Shown here piece after piece: positions 12,896 to 21,969 of a stretch of 32,686 nucleotides of DNA. The position numbers were made by a program, and so were the translations under genes. Below the pieces are notes generated by a model. That model was given only the letters and a program-made list of their open reading frames with translations. It was not told the origin of the DNA and searched no databases. The first letter of the stretch is position 1. Every line of letters starts with the position of its first letter. The stretch lies in contig CACXFC010000009.1 of assembly GCA_902766835.1 (NCBI GenBank), positions 1 through 32,686 of the forward strand, in the 5' to 3' direction. The stretch is from an uncultured Coriobacteriaceae bacterium (GTDB lineage: Bacteria; Actinomycetota; Coriobacteriia; Coriobacteriales; Atopobiaceae).

Positions 12896-12950
12896 GCGGG
12901 GCCGTCGCGTTTCGTCCACGTTAACGGATGCGCGGCGTGGCGGGCTAGGC

Positions 12951-12968
12951 ACTTTAGCGTGCTAAAGT
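12951..12968. promoter_or_regulatory. Operator-like palindrome upstream of his operon
   Basis: ACTTTAGCGTGCTAAAGT has 8-bp perfect arms around GT and is the only strong short palindrome between murJ and the his operon. Its right half includes TAAAGT, which could serve as a -10. A repressor bound here would control hisZG-hisF. TrpR-like YerC/HisR proteins are known his regulators in some Gram-positives, but whether one binds here is inference. Confidence 0.5.
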
Positions 12969-13045
12969 AGTCGAGCCATTGATGCAAGAGGGACCAGTGG
13001 CCAGTGCGCTCCCGATGCGGATGCAACTGTTCGATGTAACCTACC

Positions 13046-13077: not shown

Positions 13078-14742
13078 GTGCAAACTGGAACTCCGGGCGG
13101 TTTCCGCGACATTTTGCCTACCGAGGCGGTGGCACGCGAGCGTATCTCCGACAAGGTTCGTGAGTGCTTCTCCTCGCATGGCTACCTGCCGGTAGAGACT
13201 CCCATGCTCGAAGACAAGGCTACGCTCGAGCGCGGCGGTCGCGTTCCGGAGTCTCCCTTCCAGCTCTTCGACGGCGACGGCAGCCTGCTGGTCATGCGTC
13301 CCGACATCACGCTGGCCATTGCGCGCATGGTTGCCGGGCGTATGGGGGAGGCCACGCTGCCTCTGCGCCTGCGCTACAACGCGCCGGTCGTGCGCGAGGA
13401 GTCGAGCCTCTCCGGTCAGCCACGCCAGTTCACGCAGCTTGGCGTGGAGCTGGTGGGCGGTGAAGGCATCGAGGCCGAGGCTGAGGTCATCGAGCTTCTG
13501 GCCGAGGTGCTGCGCTCGCTCGAGGTGCCCGCATGGCGCATCGTCTGCGGATCGGTCACGCCCTTCACGGCACTGCTCGACGTCTGCGCGCCCAACGACG
13601 CCTTCCGTGCGCGCGTGCTCGAGCTCGTGCACGAGTCTGACCTCGTGGGGCTCGACGAGTTCGTGCGTGCCTCGGGCATAGCGCCCGCGGCGGCGCGTGC
13701 CCTGTGCCGCCTGCCGCGCCTTGCCGGCAACGAGAAGGTCATCGACGAGCTGGACGACCTGCTCGAAGACGCGGGCGTTGCCCAAGAGCAGCGCGGCGTG
13801 CTCGAGCTTCGTGCGTTGGTGTCGGAGCTGGGAGAGCTTACCGCCAAGGGCGTGCTCAGCTTCGACTTCTCGGTCATGAACTCCTTCGACTACTACACGG
13901 GCGTCATCTTCAAGGGCTATGCCGAGGGCATCACCGCGGCCATCGCCTCGGGCGGACGCTACGACGCGGTGCTCAAGAGCTTCGGGCTCTCCAACGTGGC
14001 AGCCTGCGGCTTCATGCTCTCGCTCGAGCGTCTCCAGGAGATTCTGGGCGAGCAGGGCGAGTCGGGCGTGGTGGCACCGGGCGTGCGCGTGGCCGAGCGG
14101 CCGCTGCGCATCGCGGTGCCCAAGGGCGGCCTCTTCCGCGACGCGGTGCGCCTGCTTGCGCAGGCGGGCCTGCCCACCGAGGAGCTTGCCAATCCTGGGC
14201 GCCGGCTCATCATCCCCGCCGGCGACGTAGAGTACGTGATCGTGCGCGCACAGGATGCGCCGGTGTTCGTGGCCCATGGTGGCGCGGACTGCGGCATCTG
14301 CGGCAGCGACTCCATCATCGAGGCGGGCGTTGACCTCGTGCAGCTGGTTGACCTGCGCTTTGGCGGATGCCGCTTTGTGGTGGCAGAGCCGGGCGCGCGC
14401 GAGGGTGCGGCAGACCGTGCCTACGCCTGGCGCGGAACGGTGCGCGTGGCAACCAAGTACCCGCGCATCACGCGTGCCTACTACGAGCGCATCGGACAGC
14501 AGGTCGACATCGTGCAGCTGCACGGCAACATAGAGCTGGGCCCCATCGTGGGCATGACCGACCGCATCGTCGACATCACTGCCACCGGCACCACCTTGGC
14601 CGAGAACGACCTGGTCATCGTGGACGAGGTCCTGGAGTGCACGGCGCGCTTCTTCTCGGGCCCGGCGGCCTATCGCACCAACCCGCGCATCCGCGCGCTG
14701 TCGCAGCGCCTGAATGCGCTTGTCTCCAAGAGCGAGGAGTGA
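13078..14742 (+). CDS. hisZG: HisZ-HisG fusion, ATP phosphoribosyltransferase
   Basis: A single 554-residue frame joins two proteins that are normally separate. Residues 1 to about 335 are HisZ, a catalytically silent histidyl-tRNA-synthetase-like regulatory subunit, with blocks MRPDITLAIARMVA, FDYYTGVIFKGYAEG and ASGGRYDAVLKSFG. Residues 342 to about 550 are the short form of HisG, which transfers phosphoribosyl from PRPP to ATP in the first step of histidine synthesis. It starts PLRIAVPKGGLFRDAVRLL and carries the signature GMTDRIVDITATGTTLAEN. A short linker joins them with no stop or frameshift. Short HisG depends on HisZ for activity and histidine feedback, so the fusion fixes a 1:1 ratio. 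The GTG start has AAAGGA eight bases upstream. First gene of the his operon. Confidence 0.93.
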   Translation: MQTGTPGGFRDILPTEAVARERISDKVRECFSSHGYLPVETPMLEDKATLERGGRVPESPFQLFDGDGSLLVMRPDITLAIARMVAGRMGEATLPLRLRYNAPVVREESSLSGQPRQFTQLGVELVGGEGIEAEAEVIELLAEVLRSLEVPAWRIVCGSVTPFTALLDVCAPNDAFRARVLELVHESDLVGLDEFVRASGIAPAAARALCRLPRLAGNEKVIDELDDLLEDAGVAQEQRGVLELRALVSELGELTAKGVLSFDFSVMNSFDYYTGVIFKGYAEGITAAIASGGRYDAVLKSFGLSNVAACGFMLSLERLQEILGEQGESGVVAPGVRVAERPLRIAVPKGGLFRDAVRLLAQAGLPTEELANPGRRLIIPAGDVEYVIVRAQDAPVFVAHGGADCGICGSDSIIEAGVDLVQLVDLRFGGCRFVVAEPGAREGAADRAYAWRGTVRVATKYPRITRAYYERIGQQVDIVQLHGNIELGPIVGMTDRIVDITATGTTLAENDLVIVDEVLECTARFFSGPAAYRTNPRIRALSQRLNALVSKSEE

Positions 14743-14747
14743 CACCC

Positions 14748-16151
14748 ATGCGAGAGATCATCCTTTCGGGCGAGCAGCGCCTGACACTTGAGGAAATTCG
14801 GCGCACGAGCGCCCTTCCGCGCGAGATAGAGCGGTCCGCGCATGCCATCGTGGATGACGTGCGTGCGCGGGGCGACGAGGCGGTGCGCGAATACTGCCTG
14901 CGCTTCGACGGCGCATGCCCCAAGAGCTTCCTGGTGCCGCAAGAGGTGGTCCAGGGCGCTCTTGATATGGTCGACCCTGAGTTTCTGGAGGCCCTGCGCC
15001 TTGCGGAGCGCCAGATTCGCAGCTTCCACGAGCGCGAGCGCGAGCAGTCGTGGTTTACCACGCGCCCTGACGGAACGCTGCTGGGCGTGAAGGTGACGCC
15101 GGTTCCCTCGGCGGCGGTATATGTGCCGGGCGGTCGCGCGCAGTATCCCTCGACGGTGCTCATGGACACGATCCCGGCCAAGGTCGCCGGCGTCGAGCGC
15201 GTCGTCATGGTGACGCCGCCGCAGCGCGACGGCTCGCTCTCTGCCTACACGCTTGCTGCCGCGGCGCTTGCGGGCGTCGACGAGGTCTACGCCGTGGGTG
15301 GCGCCCAGGCCATCGGCGCCGTTGCCTATGGTACCGAGAGCATTCCCAAGGTTGCCAAGATCGTGGGCCCGGGCAACGCCTTCGTGGCGGCGGCCAAGCG
15401 CTACGTGTCGGGCGACGTGGGCATCGACATGGTGGCGGGCCCCTCCGAGGTGTGCGTGCTGGCCGACGGCACGGCAGACCCCGTGGTGGTGGCAGCCGAC
15501 CTCATGGCACAGGCCGAGCACGACCCGCTGGCCGCCTGCTATCTGGTTACCACCGACGCGTCGCTGGCAAGCCGTGTGACCGCAGCCCTCGAGCGCCTTC
15601 TGGTGCAGAGCCCGCGCGAGGAGATTACCCGCGCCTCGCTCGACGATCAGGGCATCATCGTTACCTGCGACTCGCTCGATGCCGCCATCGACGCCGTGAA
15701 CCTCATTGCGCCCGAGCACCTCGAGCTGCATGCGCCCGAGGCCATGTCGCTGGTGGGACGCATCCAAAACGCTGGCGCCATCTTCGTGGGCCCGTGGAGC
15801 TCGGAGCCCCTGGGCGACTACGTTGCCGGCCCGAACCACACCCTTCCCACGGGTGGCACCGCGCTCTTTTCCAACCCGCTGGGGGTCTACGACTTCCAGA
15901 AGCGCTCGAGCGTCATCTCGTACACGCCCGAGGGCTTGGCAACCGACGCTCCTGCCGTGCAAGCCCTGGCGCAGGCGGAGGGCCTGTGGGCCCATGCGCT
16001 GTCGGTGGGCATGCGGCGCAAGCTGGTGGAGCAGGGCATCGAGAGCTTTGACGACCCCGTTGCGGCCTGCGAGGACGCGATGCACACGGCCTGGCCGCGC
16101 GAACTCGATGCGCCTGGCATTCCCAACCTGGGCGAACAGGTGGAGGCGTAG
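14748..16151 (+). CDS. hisD: Histidinol dehydrogenase
   Basis: A 467-residue HisD, the zinc- and NAD-dependent enzyme that oxidises histidinol in two steps to histidine. The signature GPGNAFVAAAKRYVSGDVG and adjoining VAGPSEVCVLAD are intact, and zinc-ligand and active-site segments MAQAEHDP and GPNHTLPTGGTA are present. It is about 35 residues longer than most HisD, the extra lying at the C-terminus (after the QGIESFDD segment). ATG 14748 lies five bases after the hisZG stop with GAGGAG eight bases upstream. Second gene of the operon. Confidence 0.96.
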   Translation: MREIILSGEQRLTLEEIRRTSALPREIERSAHAIVDDVRARGDEAVREYCLRFDGACPKSFLVPQEVVQGALDMVDPEFLEALRLAERQIRSFHEREREQSWFTTRPDGTLLGVKVTPVPSAAVYVPGGRAQYPSTVLMDTIPAKVAGVERVVMVTPPQRDGSLSAYTLAAAALAGVDEVYAVGGAQAIGAVAYGTESIPKVAKIVGPGNAFVAAAKRYVSGDVGIDMVAGPSEVCVLADGTADPVVVAADLMAQAEHDPLAACYLVTTDASLASRVTAALERLLVQSPREEITRASLDDQGIIVTCDSLDAAIDAVNLIAPEHLELHAPEAMSLVGRIQNAGAIFVGPWSSEPLGDYVAGPNHTLPTGGTALFSNPLGVYDFQKRSSVISYTPEGLATDAPAVQALAQAEGLWAHALSVGMRRKLVEQGIESFDDPVAACEDAMHTAWPRELDAPGIPNLGEQVEA

Positions 16152-16152
16152 G

Positions 16153-17244
16153 ATGGCCGGCCTGTCCGAGCGCGTGCGGGCACTGGTGCGCAGCGATGTG
16201 GCGTCGCTTGAGCCCTACGACCCCAACTTCACGCCGTGCAAGATCAACCTCTCGGCCAACGAGAACACCTATGGCATGCCGGAGGCGGTGCGCTCCGCCA
16301 TAGACGCCGCCATCGTGCGCACGCAGACCAATCGCTATCCCGACCCCATGTCGAACGACCTGCGCGACAAGATTGCCGCGTGGCACGGGGTGCGGCGCGA
16401 GAACGTGTGCGTGGGCAATGGCGGCGACGAGCTGCTCTTCAACTTCTTTCTGGCCTTCGGCGGGCCCGAGAAGACGCTGCTCGACTGCCCGCCCACCTTC
16501 ACGGTCTACGACATCTACTCGCGCATGCTGGGAACGCGTCTGGTCCGCTGCCCGCGCGACCCGCAGACCTTCGAGCTCGACCTTCCCGCCATGCTCGAAG
16601 CGGCGCCCACGGCAGACATGGTCATCGTCACCTCGCCCAACAACCCCACGGGCAATGTGATCGCGCGCGCCGACGTGGCGCGCCTGTGCGAGGCCTGCCC
16701 GGGCATCGTCATGATCGACGAGGCCTACACCGAGTTCTCGGACGAGGGTGTGTCTTGCGAGGAGCTGCTGGGCACCTACGACAACCTGGTCATCCTGCAC
16801 ACCTTCTCCAAGGCCTACTGCCTTGCGGGCGTGCGCGTGGGCTATGTGCTGGCGGCCCCCGATGTGATCGACGTGCTGGGCGCGGTCCGCCAGCCCTATA
16901 CGGCAGATGTCTTCGCGCAGGCGGCGGCGGAGGTGGTGGCGGACCATCGCCACGAGTTCGACGCCACCATCCAGCAGATTCGCCAGGAGCGCGAGCGGCT
17001 TGCCGCGGGCCTTGCCGCCATCGACGGTGTGCAGGTGTGGCCGAGCCAGGGAAACTTCCTGCTGGTGCGCATGCCGGAGGCGGGTGTGGTGCGCGCACGC
17101 CTGCGCGACGAGCGCTCCATCCTGGTGAGGGACTTCTCCGCGGCACCCGGCCTTGAGGGCTGCCTGCGCATAACGGTGGGTACCCCGACGGAAAATGACG
17201 AGCTCATCGATGCTATTGCAACAATCGTGAAGGAGGTAGCATGA
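16153..17244 (+). CDS. hisC: Histidinol-phosphate aminotransferase
   Basis: A 363-residue class I/II PLP aminotransferase that converts imidazole-acetol phosphate and glutamate to histidinol phosphate. Motifs seen are the N-terminal KINLSANENTYG, the TSPNNPTGN loop, DEAYTEF with the PLP-nitrogen-binding aspartate, and FSKAYCLAGVRVGY with the Schiff-base lysine at residue 220. Length is normal. It starts one base after the hisD stop, using GGAGG inside the end of hisD, and its TGA overlaps the hisB ATG. The operon position and the KINLSANEN block favour HisC over other aminotransferases. Confidence 0.96.
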   Translation: MAGLSERVRALVRSDVASLEPYDPNFTPCKINLSANENTYGMPEAVRSAIDAAIVRTQTNRYPDPMSNDLRDKIAAWHGVRRENVCVGNGGDELLFNFFLAFGGPEKTLLDCPPTFTVYDIYSRMLGTRLVRCPRDPQTFELDLPAMLEAAPTADMVIVTSPNNPTGNVIARADVARLCEACPGIVMIDEAYTEFSDEGVSCEELLGTYDNLVILHTFSKAYCLAGVRVGYVLAAPDVIDVLGAVRQPYTADVFAQAAAEVVADHRHEFDATIQQIRQERERLAAGLAAIDGVQVWPSQGNFLLVRMPEAGVVRARLRDERSILVRDFSAAPGLEGCLRITVGTPTENDELIDAIATIVKEVA

Positions 17245-17828
17245 CGCGGACGGCCACGGTGGTGCGCACAACGGGCGAGACCGACATCACCATCACGCTC
17301 GACCTCGACGGGACGGGCACTTGCAACATCAGCACGGGTGTGGGCTTCTTCGACCACATGCTCAACGCCCTGGGGCGTCATTCGCTCATCGACCTCACCA
17401 TCACGTGCAAGGGCGACACGTGGGTGGACGACCACCACACGGTTGAGGACGTGGGCATAGCCATGGGGCAGGCCCTGCGCGAGGCCTTGGGCAACAAGGC
17501 GGGCATCCGTCGCTTCGGTGACGTGTGCGTGCCGCTCGACGAGGCCCTTGTGCTTGCCGCCGTCGACATCTCGGGGCGCGGCGAGCTGTTCTGGGACGTG
17601 CCCATCGGGCCCGACAAGGTGGGCACCTTCGATACCGAGCTTGGTCACGAGTTCTTCGCGGGCTTTGCCCGTGACGCCGGGCTCACGCTGCACCTGCGCG
17701 AGCTGTGCGGTGAGAACGCGCATCACATCCTGGAGGCCGCGTTCAAGGCGTGCGCTCGCGCGCTACGCGCGGCCATCGAGCCCGACCCGCGGGTGACCGG
17801 CATCCCCTCGACCAAGGGAGTCTTGTAA
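17241..17828 (+). CDS. hisB: Imidazoleglycerol-phosphate dehydratase
   Basis: A 195-residue monofunctional HisB that dehydrates imidazoleglycerol phosphate to imidazole-acetol phosphate. The metal-binding histidine motifs FFDHMLNALGRH, DDHHTVEDVGI and the second-half counterpart GHEFFAGFARD are complete. There is no N-terminal phosphatase domain as in E. coli, so histidinol-phosphatase must be supplied by another gene. ATG 17241 overlaps the hisC stop (ATGA) and has a strong AAGGAGGT four bases upstream. Confidence 0.97.
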   Translation: MTRTATVVRTTGETDITITLDLDGTGTCNISTGVGFFDHMLNALGRHSLIDLTITCKGDTWVDDHHTVEDVGIAMGQALREALGNKAGIRRFGDVCVPLDEALVLAAVDISGRGELFWDVPIGPDKVGTFDTELGHEFFAGFARDAGLTLHLRELCGENAHHILEAAFKACARALRAAIEPDPRVTGIPSTKGVL

Positions 17829-18481
17829 TGTCTCACGAGATCGTTGTTGTCGACTACCACAAGGGAAACTTGCTCTCGGTGGCGCGCAGCCTCTCGGCAG
17901 TTGGTGCCGAGGTGGCAATCAGCGACGACCCACGCACCATCTCCGAGGCCCGCGGCGTGGTCCTGCCGGGCGTGGGCAGCTTCGAGGACGCCATGAGCTA
18001 CATGCGCCCGTCCGGCCAGGCTGACGCAGTGGTCTCGTCGGTGCAGCGTGGCGTTCCCTTCCTGGGCATATGCCTGGGCCTGCAGCTGCCGTTCCAGCGG
18101 GGCTCCGAGCTGACGAGCGAGGCGTGGGGCAACGGCTGGTGCCCGGGCCTTGGGCTCTTGTCTGGCTCGGTCTCGCGCCTCGAGTCCAGCAGGCTGAAGG
18201 TGCCGCACGTGGGGTGGAACCAGCTGCACCTTACCGAGCGGGGCAGGCAGTGCCCGCTGCTCGTCGACGTGCCGGAGGGCTCCAACGTCTACTTCACCCA
18301 TTCGTACGCCCCGGCCGACGACATAGACGAGTCCATCATTGCCACAAAGACCCACTATGGGCGCACCTTTGCCTCGACCGTCTGGCACGAGAACCTCTTT
18401 GGCGTGCAGTTTCATCCCGAGAAGTCCTCGGCCACGGGACTGCGCATCCTGTCGAACTTCGTGTGCATCGTGAGGGGATAG
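17828..18481 (+). CDS. hisH: IGP synthase glutamine amidotransferase subunit
   Basis: A 217-residue class I glutamine amidotransferase that feeds ammonia to HisF. The nucleophile is C82 in GICLGLQL, and the catalytic His-Glu pair is H196 and E198 in FHPEKS. The N-terminal VVVDYHKGNLLSVARSL and GVGSFEDAM blocks are typical of HisH. Its ATG shares one base with the hisB TAA (TAATG), with GGGAG just upstream. It should act as a heterodimer with the hisF product. Confidence 0.97.
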   Translation: MSHEIVVVDYHKGNLLSVARSLSAVGAEVAISDDPRTISEARGVVLPGVGSFEDAMSYMRPSGQADAVVSSVQRGVPFLGICLGLQLPFQRGSELTSEAWGNGWCPGLGLLSGSVSRLESSRLKVPHVGWNQLHLTERGRQCPLLVDVPEGSNVYFTHSYAPADDIDESIIATKTHYGRTFASTVWHENLFGVQFHPEKSSATGLRILSNFVCIVRG

Positions 18482-18484
18482 GCC

Positions 18485-19222
18485 ATGATCGTCTTTCCTG
18501 CTATCGACCTGATTGACGGCCAGGTGGTGCGCCTCCGTAGGGGAGAGCGCTCGCAGATGGACGTCTACTCGACAGATCCCGTTGCCGTGGCGCAGGACTT
18601 TGCCCGCAGGGGCGCCACCTGGATCCACGTGGTCGACCTCTCGGCAACCTTCGAGGAGGACGAGAGCGCCCTTGCCCACAACCGCTCTGCCATCGAGGGC
18701 ATCTGCCAGGTTCCGGGCATATCGGTCGACACGGGCGGTGGCGTGCGCAACCTTGCCGCCATCGAGCGGCTAGCCGAGGCCGGTGCCAAGCGCATTGCCG
18801 TGGGAACGGCGCTCGTGCGAGACCGCGCCTTTGCGCGCGAGGCAGCCCAGCGCTATGGCGAGCTGCTGGTGGCCGATGTGGCAGCCGCAGGCGGCGTCGT
18901 GCGCGTCAACGGATGGCGCGAGGGTGCGGGCATCAGCGCCGACGAGCTGGTGGCCCAACTGGTTGACCTGGGGTATCGGCATCTCGTGTTTACCGACGTA
19001 ACACGCGATGGCATGCAGACCGGCATCGATGCTGTTGCCTACCAGCACATCGCCGAGGTGGCGGGCTTTCCCGTCGTTGCCTCGGGCGGCATAGCCACGC
19101 TCGACGACCTGCGCGCGCTCGCTGCCCTGGGGCCAGAGGTCATCGAGGGAGCCATCACGGGGCGCGCCCTGTACGAAGGCAACTTCAGCCTCGAGGAGGC
19201 CCTTGCGGCCGCCCGCTCGTAA
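18485..19222 (+). CDS. hisA: ProFAR isomerase HisA
   Basis: A 245-residue (beta-alpha)8-barrel isomerase that converts ProFAR to PRFAR. The catalytic aspartates lie in the N-terminal FPAIDLIDGQVVRL block and the TDVTRDGMQTG block, with phosphate-binding segments DTGGGVRN and ASGGIATLDD. It starts three bases after hisH, with GAGGGG upstream. No trpF is seen in this window and I cannot tell whether the protein is bifunctional PriA. The sequence looks like ordinary HisA. Confidence 0.95.
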   Translation: MIVFPAIDLIDGQVVRLRRGERSQMDVYSTDPVAVAQDFARRGATWIHVVDLSATFEEDESALAHNRSAIEGICQVPGISVDTGGGVRNLAAIERLAEAGAKRIAVGTALVRDRAFAREAAQRYGELLVADVAAAGGVVRVNGWREGAGISADELVAQLVDLGYRHLVFTDVTRDGMQTGIDAVAYQHIAEVAGFPVVASGGIATLDDLRALAALGPEVIEGAITGRALYEGNFSLEEALAAARS

Positions 19223-19258: not shown

Positions 19259-20026
19259 ATGCTCACCAAGCGCGTCATACCCTGCCTGGACGTAAAGGAC
19301 GGCCGTGTGGTCAAGGGCGTGAACTTTGTCAATCTCGTCGATGCGGGCGACCCCGTTGAGCTGGCGAGCGTCTATGATCGCGAGGGAGCCGACGAGGTCA
19401 TCTTCCTCGACATCACCGCCACCTCCGATGACCGCTCGACCACCATCGAGCTGGCCTCGCATGCGGCCGAGGAGCTGCGCATTCCCTACACGGTGGGTGG
19501 CGGCTTCCGCGACATCGCCGGCATGACCAAGATGGTTGCCGCGGGTGCCGACAAGGTTTCGGTCAACTCGGCGGCCATCAAGAACCCCGAGCTCATTTCG
19601 CTCGCTGCGGCGGCGTTTGGCAGCCAGGCCGTCATCTGCGCCATCGACGCCAAGCGTGTGGGCAAGGCCGACAAGTGGGAGGTCTATGTGGCGGGAGGCC
19701 GCAAGGCCACCGGCATCGATGCCCTTGAGTGGGCCCAAGAGGCAGCCCGCCGTGGCGCAGGCGAGATTCTGCTCACCAGCATGGACCGCGATGGCACCAA
19801 GGAGGGCTTCGACCTTGCGCTGACCCGCGCCGTTGCCCGCGCCGTCCCCATCCCGGTCATCGCCTCGGGTGGCGTGGGAACCCTCGAGCACTTTGCCGAG
19901 GGCGTCATCGAGGGCGAGGCCGACGCGGTGCTGGCAGCTAGCGTCTTCCACTTTGGCACCTTCAGCATTCGCCAGGTGAAGGAGTACATGGCTTCGCAGG
20001 GGATTCCCGTACGCCTCGACTTCTAG
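19259..20026 (+). CDS. hisF: IGP synthase cyclase subunit HisF
   Basis: A 255-residue (beta-alpha)8 barrel that, with HisH, turns PRFAR plus ammonia into imidazoleglycerol phosphate and AICAR. Catalytic aspartates are in the N-terminal [16 protein letters not shown] and the [12 protein letters not shown] block, and phosphate-binding VGGGFRDI and [10 protein letters not shown] are present. A 36-bp gap after hisA holds a good AGGAG seven bases upstream of the ATG. This is the last gene of the operon. Its TAG shares a CTAG with the stop codon of the convergent flavoprotein. Confidence 0.97.
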
Positions 20027-21510
20027 GCGCCGCTGTCGGCGCGGTGGTGCGAACCCAAGCTCTCGCTCCGCGCGCGCATGGCGCCGAGCATGGCCTCGGC
20101 CGCGCGCAGCTGATGCGCAAGGCGCAGGCCCTGCACGCTGCCGTGAAGCGACTCGCCCTCCTGAAGGCAATTGCGCATTGCCGCTACGGCATCGAGTGCG
20201 GCGGTAAGCCCCTCTTCGGTTCGGCCCACCAGCGCGTGGGCCGACATCGTATGGCGCAGCTTTTCGGCCAGAGCCTTCGTGCCAGAGGATGCACTTGCGC
20301 AGGGAACCGGACCGTCCCAATGTACCGGGGCAGCACCTCCGGCAAGGCATGCCGCCTCGACGCCAGCCCTGCGACCGAACACCAGAGCCGAGGCGCTTGC
20401 AAGTCCACCGATGCGGTCGGCCCCGTGCATGCCTCCTGCGCACTCGCCGCAGGCAAACAGCCCCGCAGGCCCGCCTTTGCAGGAGGTATCCTCGCGGATG
20501 GCAATGCCGCCGTTCGATGCATGGGCGTACAGCGCCATGCGCATGGGGTTGGTTGCGCGAATGCCCTGGGCCCGCTCGAGCCAACTGAAATAGGTTTGCA
20601 CGAACTCGGGCGGGTCGTGGGGGAGGGCATAGCCAAGCGGCAGGCCCGTATCTCCCGCCTGTGCAATGGCCAGGTCGATGACGTGTGACGCCAACCGCGT
20701 GGTAAAGGGCCCATAGCCCGAGCGCTCCTCCAGCAGGTCTGCGGGGAAGGCAAGCGTCGAATAGCGAAACGCCTTCTCGTTGACGACGATGCCCGCCTTG
20801 GGCCTCACGAGCCCTGGCATGATCTGCAGGAACTCGGCATTGACGAGCTGGCATCCATGGGCAAGGGCGATGCCCTGCGCACTGCCCGCATTGTCAGCGG
20901 GGTTGAGGCTTCGCGCGTACAGGCCTGCCAGCCCGCCTGTGGCGAGAACGACCGCCGGGCAGGCAACGCTTACCGCCGCTCCCGCCTCATGGGAGAAGAG
21001 CTGCGCGCCACAGATGCATCCGTCCCGCACCACAAGGTCAACAAGCTCGCAGCGGGGTAGCACCGCAATGCCCAGCTGCGCAAACTCCCGCGACCACGTA
21101 TCCTTGAGGCTTGCCCGACCCACGCCGTGCCAACTGCGCGTCTTGTGGTCGAAGCAGGGGATGTAGGCGCGCTCAGAGGCGTCGGTGGGGTATTTGAGCT
21201 CGACGCCCATCTCCTCGAGCCACCGTACGGCAGGCGCCACGCCCAAGACCAGCTCGTGCACGAGCGTGGGATTGGCCACGCCACCGCCCACGGTGTGGAT
21301 CGTCTGCTCAAAGTCCTCAACGTCGGCCTCGCCGGAGGGCCCCACCAGCCCCAGCCCCCAGGTTCCCCCGTAGAAGCTCGAGCCCGAGAAGGTGGCGCCG
21401 AGGCTGGCAACGACGACGCGTGCGCCGCGGCGTGCCGCCTCGATGGCCGCCGAGCAGCCGGCAATGCCCGAACCCACCACAAGCACGTCGCACGTGCGCT
21501 GGGCTTCCAT
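20023..21510 (-). CDS. FAD flavoprotein of the FrdA/SdhA/NadB superfamily
   Basis: A 495-residue flavoprotein related to fumarate reductase/succinate dehydrogenase flavoprotein subunits and L-aspartate oxidase. The N-terminus has the FAD motif [19 protein letters not shown], and the C-terminal FAD segment is [22 protein letters not shown]. It lacks a Tat signal and a heme domain, so it is probably cytosolic. No nadA or nadC is nearby, so I do not call it NadB. ATG 21510 has GGGAGG five bases upstream; conserved sequence starts there rather than at 21561. It is encoded opposite the his genes, convergent with hisF and divergent from hisI. Substrate unknown. Confidence 0.85.
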
Positions 21511-21591
21511 AGCGGCCTCCCTTGCAACCTCTCCGTTACATGTGCGTGGTAGAGTGGGCATCCCAGCCAGGCACAGCAGCTAGGAGCTCCC

Positions 21592-21969
21592 ATGACCACA
21601 CCTTTCGATTCTACCAGTGCCACCTACGCCGGCGAGACGCTCGAGCAAGTCAGCCTTGACAGCCTGAAGCTCAAGCTCGATGCCAACGGCCTCATTCCTT
21701 GCGTCGTGCAGCAACAGGGTACGGGCGAGGTGCTCATGGTGGCTTGGATGAGTGAGGAGTCGCTGCGGCTGACGATGGAGACCGGCACCACCTGGTTCTG
21801 GTCGCGCTCGCGTCAGGAGCTCTGGAACAAAGGCGCTACCAGCGGAAACATGCAGCAGGTAAAGCAGCTGCTCATAGATTGCGACGCCGATACGCTGGTG
21901 GCGGTGGTCGATTCGCCCGGCCCCGCATGCCACACCGGACACCGCAGCTGCTTCTTCCGCAGCCTCTAG
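21592..21969 (+). CDS. hisI: Phosphoribosyl-AMP cyclohydrolase
   Basis: A 125-residue stand-alone HisI, the zinc enzyme that opens the purine ring of phosphoribosyl-AMP in the third step of histidine synthesis. The substrate block [16 protein letters not shown] and the metal-binding cysteine region [11 protein letters not shown] with [10 protein letters not shown] are intact. There is no fused HisE domain. AGGAG lies five bases upstream of the ATG. It is separated from the main his operon by the oppositely oriented flavoprotein, so it needs its own promoter in the 81-bp gap, where I see no convincing -35/-10 pair. Confidence 0.96.

Follow-up and report, generated by a model that had tools for sequence, protein, structure and literature searches.

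Can the regulatory and the catalytic subunit of a histidine-controlled enzyme be carried by one gene and still form that enzyme? The question is raised by a locus of an uncultured Coriobacteriaceae bacterium, lying in a stretch of 32,686 nucleotides (the whole of the DNA that was analysed, here called the window), in which HisZ and a short-form HisG follow each other in one chain. In ATP phosphoribosyltransferase (ATP-PRT), a model enzyme for allostery, one and the same protein, HisZ, acts on another both as activator and as inhibitor. The initial annotation held that HisZ and HisG are normally separate subunits of a hetero-octamer, and this agrees with the accessible text of two papers, in which the known short-form enzyme has two HisG dimers flanking a HisZ tetramer, i.e., a 4:4 complex (PMC9734150, PMC10795190).

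Frame, domains and genomic setting of the fused gene

Positions 13078-14742 of the forward strand form a single open frame, with a GTG start at 13078 and a stop at 14742, encoding 554 amino acids (Table 1). Pfam places tRNA-synt_His at residues 8-319 (E 1.6e-70) and HisG (PF01634) at residues 390-546 (E 1.4e-43), and the profiles built in this work locate HisZ at residues 5-325 and HisG at residues 341-546, with the 15-residue linker between them. The NCBIfam model for HisG, TIGR00070, matches residues 343-525 with 178.9 bits against a cut-off of 75.75, and its best matches among solved proteins are short forms, e.g., 2vd2; the chain terminates at residue 554, just past the HisG domain, and has no long-form C-terminal regulatory domain. 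The NCBIfam model for HisZ, TIGR00443, covers residues 10-323 with 268.2 bits, which is 3.5 bits below its cut-off of 271.65. Because the hisS model scores only 173.3 bits on the same chain, the N-terminal part is read as a divergent HisZ; it is an HisRS-like domain without the tRNA-anticodon part, in which histidine-pocket residues are retained. The claim that HisZ and then short HisG lie in one 554-residue frame is therefore borne out by the frame and by the Pfam and NCBIfam domains, and one frame is found here in place of the two polypeptides of the hetero-octameric enzyme.

No second HisZ or HisG was found in the bacterium's own draft genome (2.55 Mb, 291 contigs, 90% complete), the sole other match there being a histidyl-tRNA-synthetase-like gene with 29% identity (E 1e-9). 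An AlphaFold2 model of one chain, made from 21 sequences, had two domains and a loose linker (pLDDT 68.3, pTM 0.61); residues 328-336 in the linker, and likewise several other stretches, were below a pLDDT of 50. A Foldseek search with this model returned HisZ and HisRS chains.

Table 1. Features of the fused gene and its surroundings in the window
Feature	Positions	Strand	Description and basis
HisR-operator-like palindrome CACTTTAGCGTGCTAAAGTA	12950..12969	.	one mismatch to the 20-base HisR consensus in the accessible text of PMC9413887
HisZ part, residues 1-325	13078..14052	+	regulatory HisRS-like domain that lacks the C-terminal domain of HisZ; profiles
15-residue linker, residues 326-340	14053..14097	+	gap between the profiles built in this work
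Short-form HisG part, residues 341-554, and stop	14098..14742	+	Pfam, NCBIfam, solved relatives
hisD, histidinol dehydrogenase	14748..16151	+	Pfam PF00815
hisC-like aminotransferase	16153..17244	+	Pfam PF00155; name from position in the his cluster
hisB, imidazoleglycerol-phosphate dehydratase	17241..17828	+	Pfam PF00475
hisH, glutamine amidotransferase	17828..18481	+	Pfam PF00117; name from position
hisA	18485..19222	+	Pfam PF00977; hisA versus hisF by order and sequence start
hisF	19259..20026	+	Pfam PF00977; hisA versus hisF by order and sequence start
hisI, phosphoribosyl-AMP cyclohydrolase	21592..21969	+	Pfam PF01502

The fused gene is the first of a his gene cluster, which is split between hisF and hisI by an FAD-binding gene on the reverse strand (20023-21561) with a make-up like that of fumarate reductase or L-aspartate oxidase. 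No clear hisE (PRA-PH) accompanies hisI, and the draft genome yields a single weak match, located on a different contig in a frame of 295 aa that is perhaps MazG-like. No Rfam family matched in the window.

The palindrome upstream of the fusion, CACTTTAGCGTGCTAAAGTA, is the sole such site in the window, where 0.02 would be expected by chance. The genome also has a TrpR-family gene (TIGR02531) with a similar site upstream, an arrangement that the accessible text of PMC9413887 describes for Actinobacteria; a cacTTTAnnnnnnTAAAgtg-like palindrome and a TrpR-family gene, the sequence marks of a HisR regulon, are thus both present. With the consensus from that text, related loci, which are grouped below by numbered families (f1 being the window's own), were searched for sites with up to two mismatches over the 350 bases upstream of the HisZ profile match. 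Such sites precede fusions in 43 of 57 f1, 22 of 40 f2 and 7 of 12 f3 rows, with 0 in one shuffle per stretch, and they are also found before separate genes, in 10 of 22 f6, 4 of 5 f8 and 8 of 41 Bacillota rows. HisR probably represses transcription of the fusion through this candidate site.

Fused and separate genes across the class

The source genome is a 291-contig draft, and an assembly or sequencing error might have joined two genes; in Bacillota, some apparent fusions from the search did turn out to contain stop codons. This explanation is refuted by independent genomes, several of them single-contig assemblies, and we give it practically no credence. When the class was surveyed for the same fusion, as the initial annotation had proposed for Coriobacteriia, at least 182 of its 296 genomes were found to carry it, by searches and stop-to-stop frames that were recounted. 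In at least 149 of the 296 one match covers both halves, 148 times without an internal stop, and the remaining one (G060) is fused by its stop-to-stop frame. A repeat search of 50 and then 40 of the 296 genomes, mostly ones not among the matches listed, gave 9 and 7 further full-length matches, and another 17 genomes (15 in the window's order and two in f10), in which a long linker or a deletion broke the match, are fused by stop-to-stop frames. The count leaves out two genomes with a fused-looking gene (G009, G269) and two in which a contig end cuts the gene (G224, G291). Because spanning matches and stop-to-stop frames recur in independently assembled relatives, the hidden stop or frameshift near the junction that had been considered as an objection is excluded. 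The fusion is confirmed as real and is not a sequencing error.

In f1, 64 of 80 genomes are fused, G291 is cut and 15 have matches at HisRS level only. Fourteen of these 15 genomes without a HisZ or HisG match above that level (e.g., G044, G056, G068, G082, G174 and G241) are smaller than 2 Mb, and they are perhaps histidine auxotrophs. Fusions also occur in f7, f9 and f10, which belong to other orders of the class (9 rows). The two fused f10 proteins, L064 (G014) and L144 (G026), have frames of 486 and 466 aa, and their HisZ part is without some 60-70 positions in the middle of the profile. In a collection of named records (Coriobacteriaceae, Atopobiaceae, Coriobacteriales, Olsenella, Slackia and others), whose names are the basis for taking the class as Coriobacteriia, 22 of 24 loci are HisZ-HisG relatives and 20 of them span both parts, though these records partly overlap with the 296 genomes (L051 and G227 share coordinates), and not all row counts are independent.

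Separate genes were found in all 19 rows of f8, f11-f18, f21 and f22, from other orders of the class; the frame check within the class left out f19, f20 and f23-f25. Beyond it, the 18 loci taken from other Actinomycetota (in a search of 296 genomes, some of the class) are all separate, and so are the 41 loci taken among the matches listed for Bacillota (249 genomes searched), many of them in one read-through frame. These loci were picked from the best matches, in Bacillota partly for looking fused: several matches there spanned both genes, but stop codons lie between HisZ and HisG in 41 of 41 loci, including L198. The open-frame figure of the search reads through stops and is not proof of fusion; a candidate from another Actinomycetota family (G553, f44) was rejected for stops in its frame, as in Bacillota.

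Within the window's own order, the genes are separate in 5 of 5 f4 rows, 26 of 28 f6 rows and two f2 rows (L072, L073). Each of the 31 f4 and f6 rows with separate genes has the pair on one strand, 29 of them with different frames for the two; in 18 of the 31 the HisG start codon nearest the profile overlaps the HisZ stop. These overlapping genes share gene order, strand and tree clade with the window's fusion; they differ from it in having two reading frames and a HisZ with part of the C-terminal domain (see below). Relatives with separate genes had been named beforehand as evidence that would count against the fusion. Such adjacent genes do exist in f4, f6 and other orders, but the fusion is not made false by them; what they reveal is a difference in architecture from lineage to lineage.

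Lost domain, conserved residues and the proposed enzyme

In the 19 separate rows of the class, HisZ extends 49-107 residues beyond the profile end, by at least 86 in 17 of them. A profile built from these tails (E <1e-3) matches all 19 of its own tails, 25 of 36 from Bacillota, 5 of 5 from f4 and 15 of 25 from f6. The linkers of the fused proteins are 4-16 aa long in f1 (median 15, n=57), 5-95 aa in f2 (median 13, n=39) and 15-45 aa in f3 (median 22, n=12), with 7 aa in f5, 13-16 in f7, 10-31 in f9 and 10-16 in f10. None of the 100 linkers of at least 10 aa from f1, f2, f3, f7, f9 and f10 matched the profile of the C-terminal domain, and the window's linker is also without it. Since the domain is retained in none of them, HisG is, as judged from sequence, placed in the main lineages where other HisZs of the class have their C-terminal domain. 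One of the two fused f6 proteins (L259) keeps a remnant of the domain inside a 132-aa linker. The HisZs of L. lactis and T. maritima function without a C-terminal domain, according to the accessible text of PMC10795190, and several separate HisZs here end in tails of less than 12 aa; hence, the domain is dispensable and does not define all HisZs.

The linkers are short and variable, and of low complexity where long, and the chain might be cleaved or also started internally, with free HisZ and HisG then assembling as in the two-gene enzyme; the parts would work apart, as they do in relatives. Against this, the frame is kept across many genomes and the linkers go down to 4 residues between profile ends, and we regard cleavage or internal starts as very improbable.

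In the HisG part, K349, G350, D411, D499, G504 and T506 are invariant in 120 of 120 fused rows, with D404 variable in a single row. Arg375 is conserved throughout, in all rows of all groups; its equivalent in P. arcticus HisG, Arg56, is proposed in the accessible text of PMC9734150 to stabilise the leaving group. The window's HisG thus has the catalytic KG, the Arg56 equivalent and the D..T.GT loop. The equivalent of P. arcticus Arg32 is Gly in the window; its loss was considered as fusion-specific and rejected, as the 19 separate HisGs of the class also vary at this position (Ala 14, Ser 4, Val 1). In the HisZ part, the alignment shows the equivalents of E. coli HisRS Glu83 (as Asp or Glu), Gln127, Glu131, Tyr263, Tyr264 and Tyr288, which we take to line the histidine pocket, kept in 120 of 120 fused rows. 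The equivalent of HisRS Arg259 is Asn268 in the window. An Arg is found at this position in all 19 separate rows of the class other than those of f4 and f6, in 36 of 41 Bacillota rows and in 13 of 18 rows from other Actinomycetota; the fused proteins of f1, f2, f3, f5, f6, f7 and f9 and the separate ones of f4 and f6 lack it, and both fused f10 rows keep it. The loss marks most of the clade and not the fusion as such. The equivalent of the motif-2 residue Arg113 is lost in f5, f10 and most of f4.

Because the catalytic HisG residues and most of the HisZ pocket residues are conserved, a working, histidine-regulated enzyme is the best reading. Its HisG part would open histidine synthesis by joining ATP to PRPP; the HisZ part would switch HisG on, and histidine bound to the HisZ part would shut it off. 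Four chains would most likely assemble in the 4+4 manner of the two-gene enzyme, HisG being tethered at the position of the C-terminal domain of other HisZs of the class and with transcription probably repressed by HisR. The fused form would have been kept by selection, given the number of genomes of the class that carry it. We consider it likely, with good confidence, that the gene encodes a complete short-form ATP-PRT of this kind in one chain. Both domains are complete by profile and the gene heads a his cluster; the loss of the Arg259 equivalent, that of the motif-2 Arg in f5 and f10, the sub-cut-off HisZ score and the poor structural model speak against it.

It had been suggested at the outset that the fusion forces a 1:1 stoichiometry and would change assembly and feedback. 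The ratio is right, but it brings no change, as the known complex already consists of four HisZ and four HisG, and the conservation of residues argues that assembly and feedback would both be retained. A tether that altered regulation, leaving the enzyme permanently activated and weakly or not at all inhibited by histidine, with feedback mainly through HisR, would fit the loss of the Arg259 equivalent in nearly all fused rows and the HisR-like site upstream. We hold this to be unlikely: all fused rows retain the other pocket residues that were tested, the Arg loss does not track fusion, being found in separate f4 and f6 proteins and not in fused f10 ones, and HisR-like sites also stand before the separate genes of f6 and f8.

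Origins of the fusion and comparison with known systems

Trees were computed from joined HisZ and HisG alignments of a chosen subset of 124 rows with a Bacillota root; they were quick trees without bootstrap, and L277, L271 and L198 were omitted for their long branches. The fused rows and those of f4 and f6 make up a single group (SH-aLRT 84), next to which stand the separate genes from other orders. This group comprises a subgroup of f7, f9 and f10 (9 fused, support 100), one that unites f1, f3 and f5 with part of f2 (37 fused, support 98), one of most f2 (22 fused, support 100) and one of f4 and f6 (26 separate and 2 fused, support 90), the last adjoining f2 with a support of 36. The tree requires at least four changes between the fused and the separate state. 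Constraining the 68 main fused rows to one clade was 37.9 log units worse, with a borderline p-AU of 0.0508, and the same constraint on the 59 fused rows of the window's order was not rejected (p-AU 0.524). A single fusion event was accordingly not reached as a settled fact.

Since f4 and f6, which lie inside the fused group, are mostly separate and have a truncated C-terminal domain, the fusion may have arisen more than once. Their half-domain is hard to derive by splitting a fusion that lacks the domain, which argues for separate fusions; an early fusion with a remnant in its linker, as in L259, and a later split would also explain it. Three f2 genomes have divergent, Bacillota-like copies of HisZ and HisG, two of them separate (L072 of G219, L073 of G261) and one fused (L143 of G255), and the fused copy groups with the two separate ones and with Bacillota-like rows. 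This suggests that the three copies were acquired by transfer, and L143 is probably an additional origin, by transfer and then fusion. L143, L243 and L259 each come from one genome, incomplete in the case of the latter two.

Both parts of the fusion match by sequence the HisZ4-HisG4 enzymes of L. lactis (1Z7M), T. maritima (1USY), P. arcticus (5M8H) and A. baumannii (8OY0), with which the catalytic and most pocket residues are shared, whereas the fusion is one chain and not two. The HisZs of P. arcticus and A. baumannii have the C-terminal domain in the accessible descriptions, and the fused HisZ part lacks it, like those of L. lactis and T. maritima. The fusion resembles the long-form HisG-L in having the catalytic and the histidine-sensing parts in one chain; the sensor of the long form, however, is a C-terminal domain after HisG, while that of the fusion is a HisZ ahead of a short HisG.

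The fusion is already in print as a phrase: hisZ-hisG is named in PMC9413887 among the fusions of his genes that occur in various genomes. The genome set of that paper includes 22 Coriobacteriales and Eggerthellales genomes, and the fusions it names are apparently of the window's kind. The accessible text of that paper yielded no species list, structure or biochemistry for them; the word hisZ is absent from that of the 2007 source which it cites (PMC1963479), and a 2023 review (PMC10138114) has, in the portion available, seven fused his genes, with hisZ and hisG not among them. In the open-licence PMC literature, we found no study or biochemistry of a fused HisZ-HisG enzyme and no description of its spread, the missing domain or the f4 and f6 state.

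A bolder reading, tentative and rather doubtful at present, is that the fused HisZ-HisG would be a third, stably inherited architecture of ATP-PRT, which arose several times, with HisG in place of the C-terminal domain of HisZ in the main lineages, and in which the tether and the altered pocket without the Arg259 equivalent would give a different allosteric set point. The 4-7 residues that separate the profile ends in some relatives limit the distance from the C-terminus of HisZ to the N-terminus of HisG in a working complex, and the natural fusion offers structural studies and engineering a version encoded by one gene. An intermediate may resemble the overlapping separate genes of f4 and f6, in which the HisZ domain is half lost.
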